Made by a program: the position numbers and the translations under genes
Assembly: GCA_902791935.1 (NCBI GenBank)
Contig: CADAXQ010000004.1
Span: 1-64,000, forward strand
Length of the DNA: 64,000 nucleotides
Direction of reading: 5' to 3'
DNA from: an uncultured Erysipelotrichaceae bacterium
GTDB lineage: Bacteria > Bacillota_I > Bacilli_A > RFN20 > CAG-826
Notes under the pieces: model-generated
Told to the model about the DNA's origin: nothing
Database searches by the model: none
The model's input: the letters and a program-made list of their open reading frames with translations, nothing else
In this document: piece by piece, positions 13,869 through 27,118 of the stretch
Numbering within the stretch: position 1 is the stretch's first letter
How the letters are laid out: each line of letters starts with the position of its first letter

Positions 13869-13891
13869 ATTAAATAATAGAGGTGGTAGTT

Positions 13892-15562
13892 ATGGAACAA
13901 AAGAAAATGCTGCCGTTAGGCATTGAGGATTTTGAGCAGGTGATTTCTAATTGCTATTACGTCGACAAAACCATGTTGCTTTCTGAAATTGTCAAATATC
14001 CTACAGGCACGGTTCTTTTGTATGCTAGGCCGAGACGCTTTGGAAAAAGTCTGGCGCTTTCTATGATGGATTGCTTTTTCTCGTCGTTTCGAAAAAACCA
14101 CGACCTTTTCCGCGGGCTGGCTATTTCGCAAGATAAAGAGTTTTGCCAAACGTATCAAAATCAGATTCCCTTAATTCATTTAAATCTTAAGAACGTGACG
14201 GGGTCGGACGAGAAAGGCTTTTTGTTCAAAATGGGGGAAGCCATGGCATCGCTCTATGAGTCTTTTGCCAATCTTTCCCATGCAGCCGTTTTGTCGGAAA
14301 GAAGGAAAAACTACATTCAGAAAATTTTGGCCCAAAAAGCCAGCAAAGATGAACTTAGTAGTTCGTTGCGCGAACTTTGCGATGATTTGTGCTTCTGCTA
14401 TGGGAAAAGAGTCATGATCCTGATCGACGAATATGACGCCCCATTGCAAAATGCATTCACAAAAGGATTTTACGAAGATACGGTGGATTTTTTCAAAGAA
14501 TTTCTCGGCATGGCATTGAAGGGAAATCCCTCTCTTGAAAAAGCCGTTCTTACCGGTATTGCTCAAGTTGCGCAGGCTTCCATCTTTTCAGGAATGAATA
14601 ATTTGGTAGCGAATACAGTCATGTCCCATAGTGAAAATGAATTCTTTGGCTTTTCTGCTGAGGAAGCCAAGGAACTGTTCTCCTACTATGGAATCGCTCA
14701 GGATGCGTCTTCTGTCCGTCAATGGTATGGTGGCTATCGTTTTCAAGGGAGAGAAATTTTGAATCCCTGGTCGTTGCTGGAATTTGTCAAGAATCAGGGT
14801 TTTTTCCAGTGCTATTGGGTTAACACCGGGTCCTACGATGTCATAAAACGTCTTTTAGCAAATGGAGATGAGGCAATACTTCGCGACGTGGAAACGCTTC
14901 TCGCTTGTCGAAGCGTAGAATCGGAAATCCCCTTTTCACTAAATTACGGAGAACTAGATGGAGAAGCACCGTTTCTCTCTTTGCTGCTTCAGTCGGGCTA
15001 CCTCACGGCAAAGCCAGCCTTGGCGCCTGGCCGCTATGAACTTTCTCTTCCTAATCGTGAGATCATCGAAGTTTTTCGCCTAGAAATCAACGATTCTTAT
15101 TTTAAAAACGGAAAATCCAATCGGATTGAATCTTTGAAGGAAGCATTTTTAAAGGGAAGCGAGGAAGAAATTTCCAAGAGCATAGAAGAGAATCTTCTCA
15201 CCAGCTTTTCTTATTATGACTTTGGACAGGAAAAGAACTATCAGATTATGATTCTTACTATGGCATCTTTATTGTTCGAGGAATGCGCCATAGAAAGCGA
15301 GATTCCTGCTGGTACTGGTCGATGCGATATCCTCGTCTCTCCAAAGCAAAAAGTGGGAACGGGCATGGTCATTGAAATTAAGGCTTTAAAAGGAAAAAGC
15401 AGCCAGTCAAGGATTGAAACAACCGCCTTAAGCGCCTTGCGGCAGATTGAAGAGAAGCAATACGATGAGAGGTTGAAGAAAGATGCCGCCACCCATTTGC
15501 TGCTGTTCGGAATTGCGTTTCACGGCAAACGGGTCGCGGTGCGTAAGAAGATTGCAAGATAA
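13892..15562 (+). CDS. AAA-ATPase-like protein with PD-(D/E)XK nuclease domain (DUF1703 type)
   Basis: Two-domain protein of the AAA-ATPase_like/PDDEXK_9 group, abundant in gut anaerobes and of unknown role. N-terminus: LPLGIEDFEQVISNCYYVDKTMLL, then a Walker-like loop ARPRRFGKSLALSM and Walker B VMILIDEYDAPL. Later WYGGYRF and LNPWSLLEF are family motifs. The C-terminal restriction-like fold shows ESEIPAGTGRCDILVS followed by GMVIEIKALKG (D...E-x-K). AGGTGG at 13881-13886 supports ATG 13892 (556 aa); the in-frame GTG at 13883 overlaps this site. Preceded by the phased GGTRAC array. Confidence 0.88.
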   Translation: MEQKKMLPLGIEDFEQVISNCYYVDKTMLLSEIVKYPTGTVLLYARPRRFGKSLALSMMDCFFSSFRKNHDLFRGLAISQDKEFCQTYQNQIPLIHLNLKNVTGSDEKGFLFKMGEAMASLYESFANLSHAAVLSERRKNYIQKILAQKASKDELSSSLRELCDDLCFCYGKRVMILIDEYDAPLQNAFTKGFYEDTVDFFKEFLGMALKGNPSLEKAVLTGIAQVAQASIFSGMNNLVANTVMSHSENEFFGFSAEEAKELFSYYGIAQDASSVRQWYGGYRFQGREILNPWSLLEFVKNQGFFQCYWVNTGSYDVIKRLLANGDEAILRDVETLLACRSVESEIPFSLNYGELDGEAPFLSLLLQSGYLTAKPALAPGRYELSLPNREIIEVFRLEINDSYFKNGKSNRIESLKEAFLKGSEEEISKSIEENLLTSFSYYDFGQEKNYQIMILTMASLLFEECAIESEIPAGTGRCDILVSPKQKVGTGMVIEIKALKGKSSQSRIETTALSALRQIEEKQYDERLKKDAATHLLLFGIAFHGKRVAVRKKIAR

Positions 15563-17020: not shown

Positions 17021-17159
17021 ATTGAAAACCGTTTTGGTAAGCCGGTATTTTTCTTATTGCGCTAAAAACGACGATAACTGCCATATTTGGTGATATTTTT
17101 GCCTTCCTTCTGTAATCCATCCATAGTAAAATACGGTTAATGAATTGCCAGCGTGTAAG

Positions 17160-17251
17160 GAAAAGAAAAAGTTCCTTTTCTAGAGGAACTCTTTTACCCG
17201 CCAACGCAGGTCTCGGTTTTGGCAACTGCTTTATTTGAACGGTTGTTAACC
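17160..17251 (-). ncRNA. Predicted tracrRNA of the type II-A system
   Basis: Read on the minus strand from about 17251. The anti-repeat (17251-17233) pairs with the 5' part of the CRISPR repeat: seven lower-stem pairs (GTTTGAG with TTCAAAT, G:U allowed), a small bulge, then ten continuous pairs of GGTTGTTAAC with GTTAACAACC. A stem GCCAA/TTGGC and other pairings follow, and the RNA ends in terminator hairpin AGTTCCT/AGGAACT plus a T-rich run. A consensus -35 TTGACA and TAAACT -10 precede it. This lower stem-bulge-upper stem architecture is that of Cas9 guides. Confidence 0.82.
17161..17190 (-). terminator. Terminator of tracrRNA
   Basis: Minus-strand stem AGTTCCT with AGGAACT (plus positions 17170-17190), 7-base loop, followed by TTTTTCTTTT. 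Confidence 0.8.
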
Positions 17252-17257
17252 GTCTTC

Positions 17258-17287
17258 AGTTTATTTCCCAGTTAGGAGGTTTGTCAA
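17258..17287 (-). promoter_or_regulatory. tracrRNA promoter overlapping the cas9 translation start
   Basis: Minus-strand TTGACA (plus 17282-17287), 18-bp spacer, TAAACT (17258-17263), giving a start about 17251 at the first base of the anti-repeat. The -35 lies between the cas9 Shine-Dalgarno (AGGAGGT, 17274-17280) and its ATG (17289). Confidence 0.65.
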
Positions 17288-17288
17288 G

Positions 17289-20200
17289 ATGGGCGATAAG
17301 AAAAAGTTTTACCTTGGATTAGATATCGGTACGGATTCCGTCGGTTGGGCAGTCACCGATGAACATTACCATATCGTTCGAAAACAAGGTAAACATCTTT
17401 GGGGTTCTAGACTTTTTAGCGAAGCGCAAAAAGCGGAAGGGCGGCGTGCGCATCGTATCGCCCGTCGTCGTTATGTGAGAAGAAGACAACGGATTCTTTG
17501 GTTACAAGAAATTTTTGCCAAAGAAATGGCGAAAGTGGATCCGAACTTCTTTGAACGTCTCAATAACGCTGCCTTCGTTTTTGAAGACAAACCGAAAGAA
17601 GTGCAAGATGACTATGACAATTTAAAAGGGCGCCCCTTGTTATTCCCATGGCCACAAAAGGACGTGGATGTGACGTTCTCTAGCGATGCGGCTTACCATG
17701 GGAAATACCCAACCATCTATCACTTAAGAAAAGACATGATGGACCACCCGCATAAGAAATATGACATCCGTTTGATTTATCTGGTGATGGCCCACATGAT
17801 CAAATATCGTGGCAATTTCTTACAAGAAGGCGAGATTAAAGAAGGCGGAACCGATATCCGTCGTCTTACGGATCTCTTGCTAAGATTAGAAAACGCCGTG
17901 AAAGACTATTCTTTTGATGAAGAAGACGATGAGAACACAAATGATGTCGGTTTCTCTTATTCGGATACCAAGAAAGTAGAGCAATGGTTGCTCGATATGC
18001 AAAACCCCAATCTGCGGTTAGGCGATTTAGAAGACGCCACCATGGAGTTGTTGCAAATCGATAAGACGCATAAAAAGCCGATTAACATCGTAAGGCTCTT
18101 TAATTTGATTGCCGGCGGGAACGCGAAGATGAAGGACATCTTTGCGTTTGATGAGGAAGAAGCGGGAGATTCGGAATTGCCGGACACGCCCATTCAATTT
18201 GACAACGAAGATTTCGTGGATTCTATCCCTCAATTAGGCGATGCCTATGCTGAAGTGTTAATGGCCGCAAAAGACATTTATGATTTCCGGGTCTTGGTCC
18301 GTACCTTACAAGGCGAAAATCGTTTGTCTAACGCGATGGTCAAACGTTATGAGCTACATCAACAACAATTGAAGACGTTAAAGAAACTCTTCCGGGATTA
18401 CGATGCTGCCCATGGCACGAAATGCTTCGCGGAATTCTTTGAAATCGCTTCAGCGAAGGGCAAAGAACCAAACAAGAATTATTTGAATTATGTCGGTGTT
18501 TATAAGAGCAAGGGCAATCCGATTCAACACTACCCGCATTCGACGAAGATTGACGAACTCTATAGCGCTTTAAAAAAGTCAGCGCCGATTGCCAATGATC
18601 CCGAAAATCCCATCGTGAAAGACATTTTAACGTCCATTGATTCTCGGAACTATTTGTTGCTACAAAATTCCAAAGACAATGGTGTCTTGCCATATCAGTT
18701 AAACCTCAACGAAATGCGGATCATTCTTTTCAACCAATCGAAATACTATGCCTTCTTAGGCGAACAAGCGCCTGAATACAACAATCCAAAACGGCAGGAT
18801 TATCGCTTGGTCTCATTGCTTGAATTTAAAATTCCTTACTATGTCGGACCGTTGATCGTAAGCCGCGGTGAAAACGACCCCAAGGGCAAAAACCACTGGG
18901 TGGTTCGAAAGAGCGATTGCAAGATTACGCCTTGGAATTTCCACGACGTCGTCGATGAGAACGCCTCAGAAGAAGGCTTTATCAACAATCTTAAAAATAA
19001 CTGCACTTATTTGATGAACGAACCAACGCTTCCGAAGAATTCGTTACGTTATACTGAATTCATCGCGTTGGATCAAATGAATGGCTGGCGGATATTCTGC
19101 CATGGTTCAAAACGTCCATTAACGGTAGATGAACGGCGGGATTTATTTAATAAAGTTTTCCTCTCCAAACACAAGGTTACAGTTGCCCGTATCCAAAGTG
19201 AGCTTTGCTTGTTATTAAAAGCAAAGCCAGAGGATATCGTGTTATGCACGGACAAGAAAGATTCTTTAGATAATGCCGATATCACGTTATCGTTAAAGCC
19301 ATGGGTTCTCATGATGGATCCGCGTGGATTTGGCCCTAACTTATCCAGCAGCAAGGAAGATATCGATAAAGCAGAAGAAATCATTTATTGCCTGACGATT
19401 TTTGAAGACAAGAAAACGGCTGGTCGCCATATTGATGAGATGCCAGGATTAAGTGATGGGCAAAAGAAGTACTTTAAGTCACTCTCCTTCAAAGACTGGG
19501 GTCGTTTATCTAAGAAACTGATTGATGGGCTAACCATCCCAGTGCCAGATCAAGAAACAGGGGAAGTCTTTGATAAAACCATCCTGGATTTGATGTGGGA
19601 TACTGGCAAAACTTTCATGGAGATTTATCGGACGAAAGAACCTGATCCCGTGACTGGGTTAGATACAACTGGCTTCCAAAAACAGGTCGAGGAACTGACG
19701 GATGCCGAAGCCGGTACGCCTTATGACCTTATTGAAGAACAATATGCTTCACCATCAGTTAAGCGTTCGTTACGGCAATCGTATCGAATTATCGAAGAAT
19801 TAAAGAAGATTTTGCATATCGATTCCTTCGATGCCATCTTTGTCGAAGTCACAAGAAGTGCAAGTATAGACCAGAAAGGGAAGCGAACCAAATCACGGAA
19901 AGATCAAATTCTTGATTTCTATAAGCAAGTCAAGAAGATGAACAAATCCATGAGTGATGAGATTGACAAGCTCGAAAAAGAATTAGGGCAAAAAGAAGAC
20001 CGTCTGAATGATCGCCGTCTCTTCTTGTACTTTGCGCAATTGGGCCATTCTGTTTATACCGGCAAGCCGATTGATATCGAAAGACTAGAAAAAGACTACG
20101 ACATCGACCACATCATTCCTCGTGCAAAATACGAAGATGATAGTTTTGGTAATACCGTCTTAGTCGAACAAGCTTTAAATCGCAATAAGAGTGATGTATA

Positions 20201-21764
20201 TCCGATTGAACCAACCATTTTGACTGAAGGTGGCCGGCAATGGATTCAATATCTGGAGCAATGGAGCGCGGCAAACAAGATTAAATTCATGTCTGCTGAA
20301 AAAGCACGGCGGTTATTACGCGTTGAGCCTTTATCTGAAGATGAACTCGTTGGTTTTGTGAACCGTCAAATTGTAGCCACCAGCCAAGCCACGACGGGCA
20401 TTGCAAACTTATTACGGAAGACGGACCCCAATAGCCGTGTGGTCTTCTCCAAAGCCGATCGGGTCAGCGACTTCCGAAAAGAATTCGACATGATGAAGTG
20501 CCGGGAAGTGAATGATTTCCATCACGCACAAGACGCTTATTTGAATATTGTGGTAGGGGACGTATATGAACAAGTCTTTACCAAGAGCTTTAGCGTCAAG
20601 CAGTTGCGCGAAAAGAAGCAGGAACTTGGAAAAGACTATTCCATCCGTACCGATGTGAAGACATTCTTCCGGCGCAACCAGTATCGTTTTGGCACAAAGC
20701 ATGGCGTCTGTGTTTGGCAAGCGAAAGAATACGCGAGTGACGGCGTAGAGAATCCATCTAGCGTTGGGACTATCGATATTGTACGAAAGTACATGGCACA
20801 CAATGATCCGTTGGTAACGCGGATGCAGACAAAACCTGTAGGACAAAGCGGATTCTTTAATCAAACCATTCTTGGAAAAAGAGAGGGCGCTGGAGTGCCT
20901 TTAAAAGCAAACGGCCCTTACGCAAAAGAAGGATATGCCGATGTTTATGGCGGATACACAGGCGTATCTTATCCGTATTATTTGCTTGTTAGATCTAACG
21001 ACAAAAAAGGTGATTTTGTCTATACTTTGGAATCTATACCTGCTGTCTATATAGCGTGTGCGCCATTAAATTTTGATGAGGAAAAGAAGAATCAACGACT
21101 AGAGAATTATTTAGCAGAGAAAAAAGGATTAATCAAACCAGTCATCGTTTTAAACAAACTTCTCCCTGGCGCGGTTTTTGAGCGAAATACTCCTCACGGA
21201 CACATGCGCTTTACTGTTACCGGGAAAAGCGACGCTCGTCGTTTCTATTTTTCCAATTTGACCAATTTAGTTCTTCCCAAACACTGGTACGATTATTTCA
21301 AAATGATCAGCAAGTACCTTGGCCTAGAATTGCCGCCAGAAAGAAAGGCCGCTATAAATTTTAAGAAAGACCTTCAAAAAGAAGAAATAACAATTAGCGA
21401 CGGTCGTATTCTTTCTAAGACAGAAAATATTCAGCTGTTCAACTATTTTGGCGACAACGTTTTGAACCGCAGTCCATATATTGATATGCCAGGGTCCGAA
21501 TCAATTAAGCGAGAAATTCAGAACGAGAAAGGAAGAAATTTGTTTGTTACGCTGTGCATAAAGGATCAATGCGAGGTTTTAGAGCAGCTTTTAATTTATT
21601 TTTCCTATGGTTCAGGAACTTGCAACCTGTCTTTGATCGGTGGAACAAAAAGCGAAGGACTTAAACGCATTTCGGGGGTGCTGAACCCAGACACTGATCG
21701 CATCATCGCCCAATCTGTCACTGGTTTTTATGAAACTCAGTGTTGGCCGAAAGGTAACAACTAA
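17289..21764 (+). CDS. cas9: CRISPR-associated endonuclease Cas9 (type II-A, long form)
   Basis: RNA-guided DNA endonuclease that uses crRNA:tracrRNA. RuvC-I: YLGLDIGTDSVGWAV with D12. Arg-rich bridge helix about 51-75 (RRAHRIARRRYVRRRQRIL). RuvC-II: FVEVTRSAS with E853. HNH: DYDIDHIIPRAKYEDDSFGN with H941 and a downstream ALNRNKSD. RuvC-III: FHHAQDAYLN with H1079 and D1082 (Gln replaces a usual His between them). All catalytic residues are present. At 1491 aa it exceeds S. pyogenes Cas9 (1368 aa). The C-terminal PAM-interacting region (after about residue 1210) is more AT-rich than the rest. Strong AGGAGGT at 17274; the stop overlaps cas1 by one base. Confidence 0.97.
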   Translation: MGDKKKFYLGLDIGTDSVGWAVTDEHYHIVRKQGKHLWGSRLFSEAQKAEGRRAHRIARRRYVRRRQRILWLQEIFAKEMAKVDPNFFERLNNAAFVFEDKPKEVQDDYDNLKGRPLLFPWPQKDVDVTFSSDAAYHGKYPTIYHLRKDMMDHPHKKYDIRLIYLVMAHMIKYRGNFLQEGEIKEGGTDIRRLTDLLLRLENAVKDYSFDEEDDENTNDVGFSYSDTKKVEQWLLDMQNPNLRLGDLEDATMELLQIDKTHKKPINIVRLFNLIAGGNAKMKDIFAFDEEEAGDSELPDTPIQFDNEDFVDSIPQLGDAYAEVLMAAKDIYDFRVLVRTLQGENRLSNAMVKRYELHQQQLKTLKKLFRDYDAAHGTKCFAEFFEIASAKGKEPNKNYLNYVGVYKSKGNPIQHYPHSTKIDELYSALKKSAPIANDPENPIVKDILTSIDSRNYLLLQNSKDNGVLPYQLNLNEMRIILFNQSKYYAFLGEQAPEYNNPKRQDYRLVSLLEFKIPYYVGPLIVSRGENDPKGKNHWVVRKSDCKITPWNFHDVVDENASEEGFINNLKNNCTYLMNEPTLPKNSLRYTEFIALDQMNGWRIFCHGSKRPLTVDERRDLFNKVFLSKHKVTVARIQSELCLLLKAKPEDIVLCTDKKDSLDNADITLSLKPWVLMMDPRGFGPNLSSSKEDIDKAEEIIYCLTIFEDKKTAGRHIDEMPGLSDGQKKYFKSLSFKDWGRLSKKLIDGLTIPVPDQETGEVFDKTILDLMWDTGKTFMEIYRTKEPDPVTGLDTTGFQKQVEELTDAEAGTPYDLIEEQYASPSVKRSLRQSYRIIEELKKILHIDSFDAIFVEVTRSASIDQKGKRTKSRKDQILDFYKQVKKMNKSMSDEIDKLEKELGQKEDRLNDRRLFLYFAQLGHSVYTGKPIDIERLEKDYDIDHIIPRAKYEDDSFGNTVLVEQALNRNKSDVYPIEPTILTEGGRQWIQYLEQWSAANKIKFMSAEKARRLLRVEPLSEDELVGFVNRQIVATSQATTGIANLLRKTDPNSRVVFSKADRVSDFRKEFDMMKCREVNDFHHAQDAYLNIVVGDVYEQVFTKSFSVKQLREKKQELGKDYSIRTDVKTFFRRNQYRFGTKHGVCVWQAKEYASDGVENPSSVGTIDIVRKYMAHNDPLVTRMQTKPVGQSGFFNQTILGKREGAGVPLKANGPYAKEGYADVYGGYTGVSYPYYLLVRSNDKKGDFVYTLESIPAVYIACAPLNFDEEKKNQRLENYLAEKKGLIKPVIVLNKLLPGAVFERNTPHGHMRFTVTGKSDARRFYFSNLTNLVLPKHWYDYFKMISKYLGLELPPERKAAINFKKDLQKEEITISDGRILSKTENIQLFNYFGDNVLNRSPYIDMPGSESIKREIQNEKGRNLFVTLCIKDQCEVLEQLLIYFSYGSGTCNLSLIGGTKSEGLKRISGVLNPDTDRIIAQSVTGFYETQCWPKGNN

Positions 21765-22639
21765 TGGGTTTCCGAATTATTCGCATCACTAGCCGTTGTA
21801 AGTTGGAAACCCAACTGAACTATTTGGTTTGCCGTACGGATAAAGAAACTCGTGTTCCGCTAGATGAAATTGACTTGCTGGTCATCGAAAGCCAGCAAGC
21901 CGTCATCACGGAAGCTTTAATCACCGCTTTGCTCGACCACAAAGTGAAGATTTTACTATGTGACGAAAAGCACCATCCACAAGGTGAAATTAATGCTTAT
22001 TCTGTTTGCTACGACTCTCCTGACAAATTAAAGAAGCAGGTGGAGTGGACACAGGAGAAGAAAGATCGACTTTGGCAGCAAATCGTGAAGCAAAAGATTC
22101 ATAACCAAGCTGTAGTATTGCAACGCCATCACGAACGTGAAGCATATCAGATGCTAAGCAAATGGGAAGAAGAAGTCTTACCGGGTGACCCAACCAATCG
22201 TGAGGGGTTGTCGGCAAAGACATATTTTCCTGCCGTATTTGGCGAAGGCTTCGTTCGGCAAAGACATGGCGGCGGTTATAACGATATGCTGGATTATGGT
22301 TATTCAGTATTGCTTGCTTTGGTGGACCGTGCCATTGCTATTTACGGCTATAACTCGTCTTTTGGCATTCACCATAGAGGTAAGCAAAACGTCTATAACC
22401 TTGGTTCGGATTTAATGGAACCCATGCGTCCTTTCGTTGACGACTACATTTTATCGAATGATTTGGCACCGGATGACTATAAACACGATTTGTTGCAGGC
22501 TTTCGGCCAAAACGTGGATTTCAATGGTCGTCACGAAATATTTCAAAACGCAATTTTCGACTATGTTTTGAGTTGTCTTCAAGCCTTATCTCCAGACGAT
22601 GACTTACTAAGTAAGCCAATTAATTTTTTGGCTTTATGA
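21764..22639 (+). CDS. cas1: CRISPR-associated Cas1 (type II)
   Basis: Integrase subunit of the Cas1-Cas2 spacer-acquisition complex. Metal-ligand blocks: Glu in NREGLSAKTYFPAVFG, His in FGIHHRGKQNVYNLGSDLMEPMRPFVDDYI with the following Glu/Asp. Length 291 aa matches type II Cas1. The start codon overlaps the cas9 stop (TAATG), with no separate Shine-Dalgarno, so translation is probably coupled. Its stop overlaps cas2. Confidence 0.96.
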   Translation: MGFRIIRITSRCKLETQLNYLVCRTDKETRVPLDEIDLLVIESQQAVITEALITALLDHKVKILLCDEKHHPQGEINAYSVCYDSPDKLKKQVEWTQEKKDRLWQQIVKQKIHNQAVVLQRHHEREAYQMLSKWEEEVLPGDPTNREGLSAKTYFPAVFGEGFVRQRHGGGYNDMLDYGYSVLLALVDRAIAIYGYNSSFGIHHRGKQNVYNLGSDLMEPMRPFVDDYILSNDLAPDDYKHDLLQAFGQNVDFNGRHEIFQNAIFDYVLSCLQALSPDDDLLSKPINFLAL

Positions 22640-22959
22640 GTAACTTTCGATTTATGAGAACCTTATTGATGTTTGATTTGCCGACTTTAACGGCACAAGA
22701 TCGCCGCCATTTTCAAAAATTCGTGAAATATCTCGAAAAGTCAGGTTATATCCGTTTTGAGAAATCGATTTATATGAAGATGACCTTGAATGCTTCTCAG
22801 GCTGAAAAGGTCATTGCAGACGCAAAAAAGAACCTGCCACCAGCAGGAATCGTTGCAGCCTTAACCATCACGGAAAAAGAATTTAACGGCATGGATTATC
22901 TTCTTGGTGAGATTACTTCCGATGTCGTTTCTTCGCCGGATCGAGTAGTGGACCTATGA
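22636..22959 (+). CDS. cas2: CRISPR-associated Cas2
   Basis: Ferredoxin-fold structural subunit that bridges two Cas1 dimers during spacer integration. N-terminal MRTLLMFDLPTLTAQDRRHFQKF has the conserved Asp; SGYIRFEKSIYMK follows. 107 aa is typical for type II-A. The ATG overlaps the cas1 stop and the TGA overlaps csn2 (ATGA junctions). Confidence 0.95.
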   Translation: MSNFRFMRTLLMFDLPTLTAQDRRHFQKFVKYLEKSGYIRFEKSIYMKMTLNASQAEKVIADAKKNLPPAGIVAALTITEKEFNGMDYLLGEITSDVVSSPDRVVDL

Positions 22960-23669
22960 ACATTATTCAAAGCCCTGTCATTGAGCAAAACATAGAGTTA
23001 AAGCCCGACGTTTTCTTCAACGTCGTTTTTGAAGATCCATTCATGTTCCGCGAGGAACTGTCTCATATTGACGACCAGTTATTGTCCGGCGACGATTACC
23101 TTTCTTATTGGGTGGACGGAGCAAAAGAGAATTTATCTAAGGTTGCCTTCTTGGTAGATAACCCTTTAAAGATTGAATTCGATCAGAAGAAGACCGATGC
23201 CTTGGTGCAAAAAGACGTGCAGAAGAGAATGGCCCAAGAACGTAAGGACGAATATGCAGAACTGATCCAAAAGATTAACGAATATATTGAAAAAATAAGT
23301 TTCGATTACGCCATCCCATTAACTTTCGACACGGATATAAGTCTGGCATCTTTCTTAAAGGCGGTATCTTTGACTTCGGAAGCGGACTATGGCACCTATT
23401 TTGATTACTTGGTGGCCACCATTAAGAAAATATCCTTCGTTTTAGGATACAAAATATTCTTTTTCGTGAATCTTCATGACTATTTAAGGTCAGAAGAACT
23501 ACAAAATTTCGTTCGTAGCATGCGTCAGCTTGAGATTGACTTCGTTTTGGTGTCATCTCATCGTCCAAATACTGTTTTGGATGATGAGTTCTTAATCGAA
23601 ATTGACCAAGACAAAGCCGAGTTACACGTTGAACCAAAAAATCAAATGAGTAGAATAATCAATGGTTAG
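22956..23669 (+). CDS. csn2: Type II-A protein Csn2
   Basis: Ring-forming DNA-end-binding protein that defines subtype II-A and assists spacer acquisition. Position (after cas2, before the array), ATGA overlap and 237-aa length fit. Sequence features: acidic N-terminal half, a lysine/glutamate helical stretch around residues 85-115, and a Rossmann-like segment KKISFVLGYKIFFFVNLHDYLRSEELQNF with LVSSHRPN late in the protein. A promoter for the array appears to lie in its last codons. Confidence 0.88.
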   Translation: MNIIQSPVIEQNIELKPDVFFNVVFEDPFMFREELSHIDDQLLSGDDYLSYWVDGAKENLSKVAFLVDNPLKIEFDQKKTDALVQKDVQKRMAQERKDEYAELIQKINEYIEKISFDYAIPLTFDTDISLASFLKAVSLTSEADYGTYFDYLVATIKKISFVLGYKIFFFVNLHDYLRSEELQNFVRSMRQLEIDFVLVSSHRPNTVLDDEFLIEIDQDKAELHVEPKNQMSRIING

Positions 23670-23704
23670 ACCATCAAAAAGACCCGAAAACACCATATTT
23701 TGAG
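23629..23704 (+). promoter_or_regulatory. CRISPR leader with candidate array promoter
   Basis: TTGAAC (23629-23634), 16-bp spacer, TAGAAT (23651-23656) lie in the 3' end of csn2 and would start transcription near 23663. The leader ends in ATTTTGAG directly against the first repeat, close to the ATTTGAG leader-anchoring sequence known from streptococcal II-A loci, so this is the integration end. Confidence 0.65.
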
Positions 23705-23845
23705 GTTTGAGATGGTTGTTAACTCATATCCTTCTTCAACGAGCAAACTAGACTCATAGAAATAGTTAGAGTTTGAGATGGTTGTTAACTCATATCCTTC
23801 TTCAACAACGGTTTATAGTCTATAGCCTCGTCTTTGAAACCTTTC

Positions 23846-23881
23846 GTTGAAGAAGGATATGAGTTAACAACCATCTCAAAC
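23846..23881 (-). repeat. Perfect CRISPR repeat in inverted orientation
   Basis: All 36 bases are the reverse complement of the array consensus. It is 39 bp after the forward repeat at 23771-23806, so pre-crRNA could form a 36-bp perfect stem with a 39-base loop. Sequence between (23807-23845) is longer than any spacer. Confidence 0.95.
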
Positions 23882-23911
23882 CTTTTATCCCCGCGATTGC
23901 CGCCGGTGTCC

Positions 23912-23936
23912 GTTGAGGAAGGATACCTTCTTCAAC
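23912..23936. repeat. Chimeric 25-bp mini-repeat forming an 11-bp hairpin
   Basis: It begins GTTGAGGAAGGATA (like the inverted repeat's start) and ends CCTTCTTCAAC (the forward repeat's end). The two arms pair over 11 bp (one G:T) around an ATA loop. It is flanked by 30-bp spacers on both sides (23882-23911 and 23937-23966), so it behaves as the junction of inverted and forward array segments. Confidence 0.9.
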
Positions 23937-26052
23937 AGGGGAAGGAGAAGAACCCTGATCTTTGCCGTTTGAGATGGTTGTTAACTCATATCCTTCTTCA
24001 ACCCAAACAACAATGAGTTCAGAAGAACAATAGTTTGAGATGGTTGTTAACTCATATCCTTCTTCAACGGCGACGCCTTTTATGGTCTTCTCATAGTCGT
24101 TTGAGATGGTTGTTAACTCATATCCTTCTTCAACCCAAGACCAGCGATTAAGATATTGCCCAAGGTTTGAGATGGTTGTTAACTCATATCCTTCTTCAAC
24201 TTGAACACGTAGATGCCTTCGGCTTCGGGAGTTTGAGATGGTTGTTAACTCATATCCTTCTTCAACTGCGATTGTCAGTCCGCACCAATACATCAAGTTT
24301 GAGATGGTTGTTAACTCATATCCTTCTTCAACCCATGGAGCGGCTCTTCCGGCCGGAGACCGGTTTGAGATGGTTGTTAACTCATATCCTTCTTCAACGA
24401 CACTGGGACGTTCGGACGTAAAAGTCCAGTTTGAGATGGTTGTTAACTCATATCCTTCTTCAACAAATAAATGATAAAGCAATTCTTTTATATTGTTTGA
24501 GATGGTTGTTAACTCATATCCTTCTTCAACCGTAGCCTGCCTTATGCCGCCTGGCGGAGCGTTTGAGATGGTTGTTAACTCATATCCTTCTTCAACCGGA
24601 ACGATAGAGAGGGAAACGGCCGCTTTGTTTGAGATGGTTGTTAACTCATATCCTTCTTCAACAGAGATAAACGAGATGCTATGGCTCGCACTGTTTGAGA
24701 TGGTTGTTAACTCATATCCTTCTTCAACGAAAAATAGGGAAAAAATGAACTACAAATGGTTTGAGATGGTTGTTAACTCATATCCTTCTTCAACTTCCGC
24801 ATGACGTACTCCCTTTGATCGGGCGTTTGAGATGGTTGTTAACTCATATCCTTCTTCAACCGTTCGGCTCTTGGAACGCGCTAACCGTCCGTTTGAGATG
24901 GTTGTTAACTCATATCCTTCTTCAACACTTTGAAGACGATATGGATGGCTATTACGGTTTGAGATGGTTGTTAACTCATATCCTTCTTCAACAACATGGC
25001 AACTAAGAAGAGTGGATTTGTGGGTTTGAGATGGTTGTTAACTCATATCCTTCTTCAACTAATAAGTAGTAAGTAGTGACTTAGAACGCGTTTGAGATGG
25101 TTGTTAACTCATATCCTTCTTCAACGCATCGTCTCCGCCCTGTTCTCTCTTTCGTGTTTGAGATGGTTGTTAACTCATATCCTTCTTCAACAAATATGCT
25201 AAGCTGGTTCTAGATTTTCCGTTTGAGATGGTTGTTAACTCATATCCTTCTTCAACATCAATAAGTATTACTTGCTCAACTCCGGTGTTTGAGATGGTTG
25301 TTAACTCATATCCTTCTTCAACCGCGTAATAGAAGCGTTTGGTCAGTTTGTCGTTTGAGATGGTTGTTAACTCATATCCTTCTTCAACTTCGCGGCCGAT
25401 TCATCAGGCGAAGGAGAGGTTTGAGATGGTTGTTAACTCATATCCTTCTTCAACGAACATTAAAGGAATCGTATGATGCTTATCGTTTGAGATGGTTGTT
25501 AACTCATATCCTTCTTCAACAAGACGTTGGCCCTCGTCCCGTCAACCTTTGTTTGAGATGGTTGTTAACTCATATCCTTCTTCAACTTCAGCCTTAGAAA
25601 ATTTATTGAAAATTCGGTTTGAGATGGTTGTTAACTCATATCCTTCTTCAACCCAATCAAATGCCAAAGAAATAGGGAACTCCGTTTGAGATGGTTGTTA
25701 ACTCATATCCTTCTTCAACCGATGAGCCGCATCAAGTCGCTTTTCGTGAGTTTGAGATGGTTGTTAACTCATATCCTTCTTCAACTAAACGGGCAAAAAA
25801 TGCCGATCGGCGGAAGTTTGAGATGGTTGTTAACTCATATCCTTCTTCAACAAGAGGCGATTGCTTAGTCCACATCTTGCGGTTTGAGATGGTTGTTAAC
25901 TCATATCCTTCTTCAACGGACAAAGACTCTGAGACATTCGGGCGAAGGTTTGAGATGGTTGTTAACTCATATCCTTTTTTGCTTATTTCTAAAAAACGGC
26001 GATATTGCAGATCCCCAAGTAGCTACATAAAATTTTGAAGTAATCTTTCAAT

Positions 26053-26466
26053 ATGGGACTCAAAAATAACGAAGGACGTGTGGGTTTGTTTTACATCGTA
26101 GACGGGAATATCTATACGATGATTAATGATCCCTTAGAAAACGAAGTGGACTCTATGAATGAGATCCAACCTCTTTATAACCATGAATATTTACTAGATA
26201 AGATGAAGTATGGTGATGAACCTAATTTCAAAGAGCTTCAAGACTATCTAGGTTATGATCTAAGAAAAGCCACAGTATGGACGTTCCCTCGTGGTAGGGT
26301 GTGGTACAACGTTAAAACCAATACCTACACGATTTCCTCATCGCATAGGTTGCTAGAAGACCCTCATTATCGTCAGATAATCTTGGATACATTTCATTTG
26401 AATGGTCAAAAGGTCTATCTCAACTACGAAGGCGAATATGAGAACTTTGATGAGTCTTATTTATAA
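26053..26466 (+). CDS. Hypothetical protein downstream of the CRISPR array
   Basis: 137-aa soluble, acidic protein with no signal peptide or membrane segment. Notable stretches are VGLFYIVDGNIYTM near the N-terminus and ATVWTFPRGRVWYNVKTNTYTISSSHRLLEDPHY in the middle. No family is recognised and no Shine-Dalgarno is obvious before the ATG. It starts about 70 bases after the degenerate terminal repeat and is followed closely by the ASCH-like gene, with which it may be co-transcribed. The pairing FPRGRV...Y suggests a small regulatory or binding protein, but this is not established. Confidence 0.6.
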   Translation: MGLKNNEGRVGLFYIVDGNIYTMINDPLENEVDSMNEIQPLYNHEYLLDKMKYGDEPNFKELQDYLGYDLRKATVWTFPRGRVWYNVKTNTYTISSSHRLLEDPHYRQIILDTFHLNGQKVYLNYEGEYENFDESYL

Positions 26467-26475
26467 GGCAAAACG

Positions 26476-26856
26476 ATGAAAATGAAGACTAAGATTTTGA
26501 TATCAATTCATCCCGAGTATGTTCGTCAAATCATCAACGGGGCCAAGAAATATGAATATCGCAGAGTTGTAGCAAAGGAAAACGTATATTCCATTCTTAT
26601 TTACGAAACCATTCCGGTAAAGAAAGTGGTGGCGGAAGCAGAGGTTCTAGAAGTTTTAGCGATGTCTCCCGACGAGTTATGGGAGCAAACAAAAGACTAT
26701 TCAGGAATCAGTAAGGCGTTCTTTGAATCTTATTTTGCTGGACGTAAGATTGCTTATGCCTATAAGCTTGGCAAAGTAATGGCTTTTAAAGAGCACAAGC
26801 CCTTAGCTGCTTATGGGTTAAGAATCGCACCCCAGTCCTTTGCTTACGTTGAGTAG
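26476..26856 (+). CDS. ASCH/PUA-like domain protein
   Basis: Small predicted RNA-binding or RNA-processing protein. The N-terminal ILISIHPEYVRQIINGAKKYEYRRVVA is the typical ASCH-type opening (S-I-x-P-x-Y-x-x-x-I-x-x-G-x-K-x-x-E-x-R), followed by a VYSILIYETIPVKKVVAEAEV beta segment and a C-terminal strand. 126 aa fits the family. Ten bases separate it from the preceding gene. Cellular target unknown; some relatives are annotated as transcriptional regulators. Confidence 0.72.
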   Translation: MKMKTKILISIHPEYVRQIINGAKKYEYRRVVAKENVYSILIYETIPVKKVVAEAEVLEVLAMSPDELWEQTKDYSGISKAFFESYFAGRKIAYAYKLGKVMAFKEHKPLAAYGLRIAPQSFAYVE

Positions 26857-26926: not shown

Positions 26927-26932
26927 TATGCC

Positions 26933-27093
26933 GCCGAGTAAGCTCGATATGGCCGTCCAAGTAGGGTAGTTGTAGGTGCAAATCCTATGGTGGTCCCAAT
27001 CGCGCAGCGTGCCTTGAGACGTCAAAACGTGTACAGGCCGTCTGTGGGGCAGCGTTAAGCTGCGACACCCTACGATAACGTAGGGTCTTTTTT
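26933..27093 (+). ncRNA. Structured non-coding RNA, possibly raiA-motif-like
   Basis: About 160 bases between its own promoter and a strong terminator with no protein-coding pattern. Visible local stems: CGAG/CTCG closing TAAG near 26935; TAGG/CCTA closing the T-loop-like TGCAAAT; GCCT...AGGC with an inner ACGT/ACGT (27011-27038); GCAGC/GCTGC (27049-27063); and the terminator. It does not match tmRNA, RNase P, 6S, SRP or a tRNA as far as I can judge. Size and the AGTAAGCTCGATA and GGTGCAAATCC segments remind me of the Bacillota raiA motif, but this is a recollection and unverified. Confidence 0.65.
27068..27093 (+). terminator. Terminator of the structured RNA
   Basis: CCCTACG/CGTAGGG stem, ATAA loop, then TCTTTTTT. 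Confidence 0.9.
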
Positions 27094-27118
27094 ATGCCGT
27101 TATGGATTCTTGATTGAT

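Follow-up and report, generated by a model that had tools for sequence, protein, structure and literature searches.

The CRISPR array studied here carries, near its leader end, one perfect copy of its own repeat in reverse orientation together with a short palindromic hybrid of the same repeat, and this raises the question of how such a block arose and what it does to the crRNAs encoded around it. The array lies in the window (the whole stretch of 64,000 nucleotides that was analysed) and belongs to a draft genome of 1.93 Mb in 54 contigs, 92% complete.

The locus is of type II-A, as cas9, cas1, cas2 and csn2 adjoin the array (Table 1), with the leader on the csn2 side and a degenerate repeat at the opposite end. 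All 32 perfect copies of the forward repeat, GTTTGAGATGGTTGTTAACTCATATCCTTCTTCAAC (R), are identical, and the spacers outside the block are all 29-31 bp long. A tracrRNA candidate is found upstream of cas9, where a strong terminal hairpin is followed by a T-run; its anti-repeat is complementary to the 5' half of the repeat, GUUUGAGAUGGUUGUUAAC pairing with minus-strand positions ~17235-17262. Because of this pairing with the 5' half, crRNAs from the forward repeats are predicted to be read from the plus strand, starting on the csn2 side, and the usual rule in such systems is that the array grows at that side. The cas9-cas1-cas2-csn2-array order, the tracrRNA anti-repeat, the 36-bp repeats, the 30-bp spacers and the degenerate terminal repeat are all shared with an ordinary type II-A locus that has Csn2 and a tracrRNA, from which the inverted block is the sole difference. 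As a separate observation, just 35 bp lie between the csn2 stop and the first repeat, and the promoter and leader signals must therefore sit within the 3' end of csn2.

Anatomy of the inverted block

Table 1. Features of the CRISPR-Cas locus and of the inverted block, with positions in the window
Feature	Position	Strand	Remark
tracrRNA candidate	17150-17262	-	degenerate anti-repeat ~17232-17262, downstream hairpin, terminator hairpin with U-run ~17165-17195
cas9	17289-21764	+	TIGR01865, E=4.6e-235
cas1 (type II)	21764-22639	+	TIGR03639, E=1e-80
cas2	22636-22959	+	TIGR01573, E=3.6e-15
csn2 (type II-A marker)	22956-23669	+	TIGR01866, E=6.2e-31
promoter-like site, leader end	23629-23656	+	weak, chance level
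leader, very short, csn2 stop to first repeat	23670-23704	+	terminates in ATTTTGAG
CRISPR array	23705-25979	+	32 perfect forward 36-bp repeats and degenerate terminal repeat 25948-25979
S1, newest spacer	23741-23770	+	crRNA would use R2
R2, forward repeat	23771-23806	+	5' arm of 36-bp hairpin
39-bp segment	23807-23845		simplest reading: flipped 30-bp spacer 23816-23845 and 9 extra bp (putative 9+30 split)
R', perfect reverse-orientation repeat	23846-23881	-	reverse complement of R
flipped 30-bp spacer	23882-23911	-
25-bp palindromic chimera	23912-23936		R'[1-14] + R[26-36], one substitution
first normal spacer past the block	23937-23966	+	followed by intact R3 at 23967

The block is preceded by only one newer spacer, S1. 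R' is the only perfect reverse complement of R within the window, and genome-wide (up to 3 mismatches, 20-nt core) it is unique apart from one unrelated site with 3 mismatches; a perfect inverted match of 36 bp is far above chance. Written in forward orientation, the two flipped spacers read GGACACCGGCGGCAATCGCGGGGATAAAAG and GAAAGGTTTCAAAGACGAGGCTATAGACTA, and no forward copy of either exists in the window (no common 12-mer) or elsewhere in the genome. The distance from R2 to R3 amounts to 196 bp, 2 short of three normal 66-bp periods (198). The substitution in the chimera changes A6 to G and falls in its first arm; as RNA, the chimera is predicted to fold into 11 pairs, one of them G-U, around an AUA loop, at -13.6 kcal/mol.

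A preliminary description of this DNA had placed the same succession of elements near the leader end of a type II-A array, and base for base this anatomy is confirmed, as is the 11-bp hairpin with a 3-base loop that it proposed for the chimera. Its remark that the junction looks like an inversion or a template switch inside the array is also supported.

Predicted effect on crRNAs

In the type II-A pathway RNase III cuts the duplex of tracrRNA and repeat, and the crRNA is made of a spacer and the repeat downstream of it. For R2, the 39-bp segment and R' folding predicts a stem of 36 bp that encloses a loop of 39 nt, at -63.8 kcal/mol, compared with -16.3 kcal/mol for an ordinary repeat-spacer-repeat stretch, and the predicted pairing of R with R' reaches -59.9 kcal/mol, against -25.4 kcal/mol for R with the anti-repeat of the tracrRNA candidate. 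The fold of the whole leader-end RNA has a z of -10.2. Matches of the block to Rfam MIR4374 stay below the gathering score and were rejected as a mere reflection of the long hairpin.

It would be logical to suggest from these folds that R2 and R' pair in cis in the transcript, giving a possible RNase III target, and that the hairpin would deprive S1 of its tracrRNA partner. S1, the newest spacer, is thus probably impaired, since its crRNA uses R2, an arm of the hairpin. Both flipped spacers are probably without a plus-strand crRNA as well, as neither would have a usable repeat downstream: R' comes next after the 39-bp segment, and the chimera after the other flipped spacer. From 23937 onward processing should be normal, because the downstream repeats are intact. 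The practical cost would be modest, with 2-3 of 34 spacers probably non-functional, and the block may be considered a natural test of the fate of a crRNA beside a perfect cis duplex.

These predictions agree with the earlier suggestion of a stable 36-bp duplex in the pre-crRNA that might serve RNase III without tracrRNA. The expectation of two non-productive spacers next to the newest ones holds for the two flipped spacers and has to be amended in two respects, as S1 is predicted to be affected too and is the single newer spacer. Attenuation of array transcription, also proposed there, receives no support, since the R2-R' hairpin has no U-tract and a terminator scan was negative in the block; the same applies to a crRNA from antisense transcription, as the minus strand contains no promoter-like site in 23400-24200.

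Rarity and origin of the block

For comparison we used the csn2 neighbourhoods of 51 other genomes, in 44 of which arrays were detected, with about 1,000 repeats in total. In none of these 44 csn2-linked arrays does any 14-nt stretch match the array's own repeat exactly in reverse complement, and the array in the window is positive under the same test. The inverted block is therefore no conserved device of type II-A arrays in the group surveyed. Reverse matches at 30% mismatch in one array (L125) were discarded, as they are due to a partly self-complementary repeat and include no exact 14-mer. The genome contig database does not contain the 30-nt core of the repeat, and neither that database nor 279 genomes from the order gave a second genome with this repeat, so that no strain with the uninverted, ancestral order of units was found; a Csn2-based search of the database returned no relative. 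When type I-E arrays of E. coli were searched with a palindromic query for reversed repeats, the matches listed were only spacers that extend the match by chance, and the array of E. coli W, one of these matches, proved regular when read through; owing to the piece limit and to the joining rule, this counts as weak evidence only. Odd repeat spacings (244, 242, 939, 509 and 48 bp) were seen in other type II-A arrays of the class (L098, L117, L118 and L123), and are perhaps insertions or decayed repeats.

We consider it reasonably probable that the block is a rare and passive rearrangement of the array, in which about two units were inverted locally, each breakpoint falling within a repeat, and the longer palindromic junction opposite the chimera was lost. 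The ancestral stretch would have been regular, R2-Sa-R-Sb-R4-Sc-R3, and the inverted segment would have extended from late R2, broken after nt ~22, to late R4, broken after nt ~25. Inside the product a complete repeat in reverse would then stand between two flipped spacers of 30 bp, as is the case here, and one junction would be a short palindrome, B'B, from which the 25-bp chimera differs by a single substitution. The opposite junction would be a 47-bp palindrome, AA', whose arms of 22 bp flank a loop of 3 nt; when folded as single-stranded DNA, the predicted sequence closes completely into a hairpin of 22 pairs with that loop. Long palindromes are unstable in bacteria owing to SbcCD-type cleavage and replication slippage, and AA' may have been lost in this manner, leaving an intact R2 and 9 bp. 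We infer both this route and the loss of AA'.

Several observations bear on the inversion. One palindromic B'B junction is present, and the flipped spacers exist without forward copies, which favours an inversion over a duplication. The spacing of 196 instead of 198 bp follows from 45 bp (36+9) standing where the 47-bp AA' is predicted. The reciprocal AA' junction itself is absent and its site is occupied by the intact R2 and the 9 bp, so that a plain, untouched inversion is excluded. Against the inversion it has to be counted that the loss of AA' is an added step, that the 9 bp are without explanation, and that the substitution in the chimera and its short central offset require additional mutation.

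A close rival, which we regard as possible only tentatively, is an out-and-back template switch in replication, where the nascent strand would jump to the opposite strand after R2, copy about 120 bp backwards (a spacer, a repeat, a spacer and 14 nt of a repeat) and return at the CCTTCTTCAAC of the repeat, any forward originals being lost later via recombination between direct repeats. Only one event would then be needed to explain why R2 is intact, how the chimera formed and why the left junction lacks symmetry, and in yeast it is documented that template switches at inverted repeats can invert the sequence lying between the two arms (PMC8604942). The inversions described there are likewise bounded by palindromic arms, but they concern yeast coding DNA, whereas in the present array the arms are formed by CRISPR repeats that stood in direct, not inverted, orientation beforehand. 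The absence of the forward originals also demands a second loss event, unless the switch replaced them, and the left junction bears no more microhomology than expected by chance (a single 8-bp direct repeat, P = 0.24 from shuffles). A short-read graph error or chimeric molecules from amplification would be a more trivial source of the block, and such an artefact gains some credit from the draft, probably a metagenome-assembled genome, from the difficulty of assembling arrays of identical repeats and from the lack of a reversed repeat in the 44 other arrays. Judged from the sequence we nevertheless find it unlikely, and clearly more so than the template switch: inverted chimeras duplicate sequence that also exists in forward orientation, which the flipped spacers do not; the substitution of the chimera is found in none of the 32 perfect repeats; the arms of the chimera are not exactly complementary, unlike those of fold-back products; and outside the block spacer lengths are regular. 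Mis-integration by Cas1-Cas2 was rejected, as it gives direct copies of the target and an insert of about 30 bp, not a reversed 36-bp repeat.

To the reading of the block as a selected cis-regulatory element, with R' as an internal anti-repeat for tracrRNA-free RNase III processing or attenuation, or as a source of antisense crRNAs, we attach almost no weight. The great stability of the 36-bp hairpin and its position near the leader would suit such a role; it is opposed by the lack of recurrence in the csn2-linked arrays compared, by the ordinary tracrRNA at the locus, by the missing terminator-like and minus-strand promoter-like sites, and by R' being without the tracrRNA body that Cas9 requires. 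That a cis anti-repeat actually works here, with RNase III cutting without tracrRNA and so tuning leader-near crRNAs, or that a flipped spacer gives a functional antisense crRNA, is very improbable. The block, present in the assembly and rare, probably arose passively as a scar, at a cost that is local and can be predicted.

The local inversion that we favour can be set beside known rearrangements of arrays. Those reviewed are deletions and duplications via recombination or replication misalignment, with repeat boundaries kept (PMC8047081), and CRISPR loci are therefore recombination-prone. As in our case, a few repeat-spacer units of one array are rearranged by exchange at repeats; the reviewed events preserve repeat orientation, whereas the present one turned a repeat around and left a palindromic hybrid. 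Rare insertion of a spacer inverted relative to the PAM was reported for an archaeal array (PMC3468723), where array sequence also stands in the wrong orientation, but there the spacer alone is flipped at acquisition and here a whole repeat is reversed between spacers. Among open-licence papers our literature search found no account of a reversed repeat within an array. The reversed repeat and its palindromic hybrid can be read as a trace of strand exchange among repeats in replication or repair.

Spacer targets and neighbouring features

Protospacers of the flipped spacers were sought with the aim of establishing PAM orientation. None was found in IMG/VR with 21-22-mers, an 18-mer or extended 16-mer cores (best 22/30 and 25/39), nor in phages or plasmids, and a Pseudomonas phage match with E = 4 was dismissed as chance. 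Another spacer, at 24267-24296, matches over 23-25 nt a microvirus from pig faeces (MG945590.1) and an IMG/VR contig (L044; L045:1468-1497), and the host is for this reason probably a gut bacterium. The 3' flanks of these matches, GTTATATGG and GTTTGAATGG, would be compatible with a possible GTTNNA-like PAM, as derived from two related sequences only.

Near the CRISPR locus, at 13883-15562 (plus strand), an AAA-ATPase-like protein with a PD-(D/E)XK nuclease domain is encoded (PF09820, PF08011). Directly after the array two small genes at 26053-26856 (plus strand) code for a protein of 137 aa without family and for an ASCH-domain protein (PF04266). The intergenic stretch at 26930-27095 (plus strand) has no Rfam match; its RNA is predicted to be strongly structured (-63.6 kcal/mol, z -2.9), with a perfect terminator hairpin at its end, and it may possibly represent a structured non-coding RNA.
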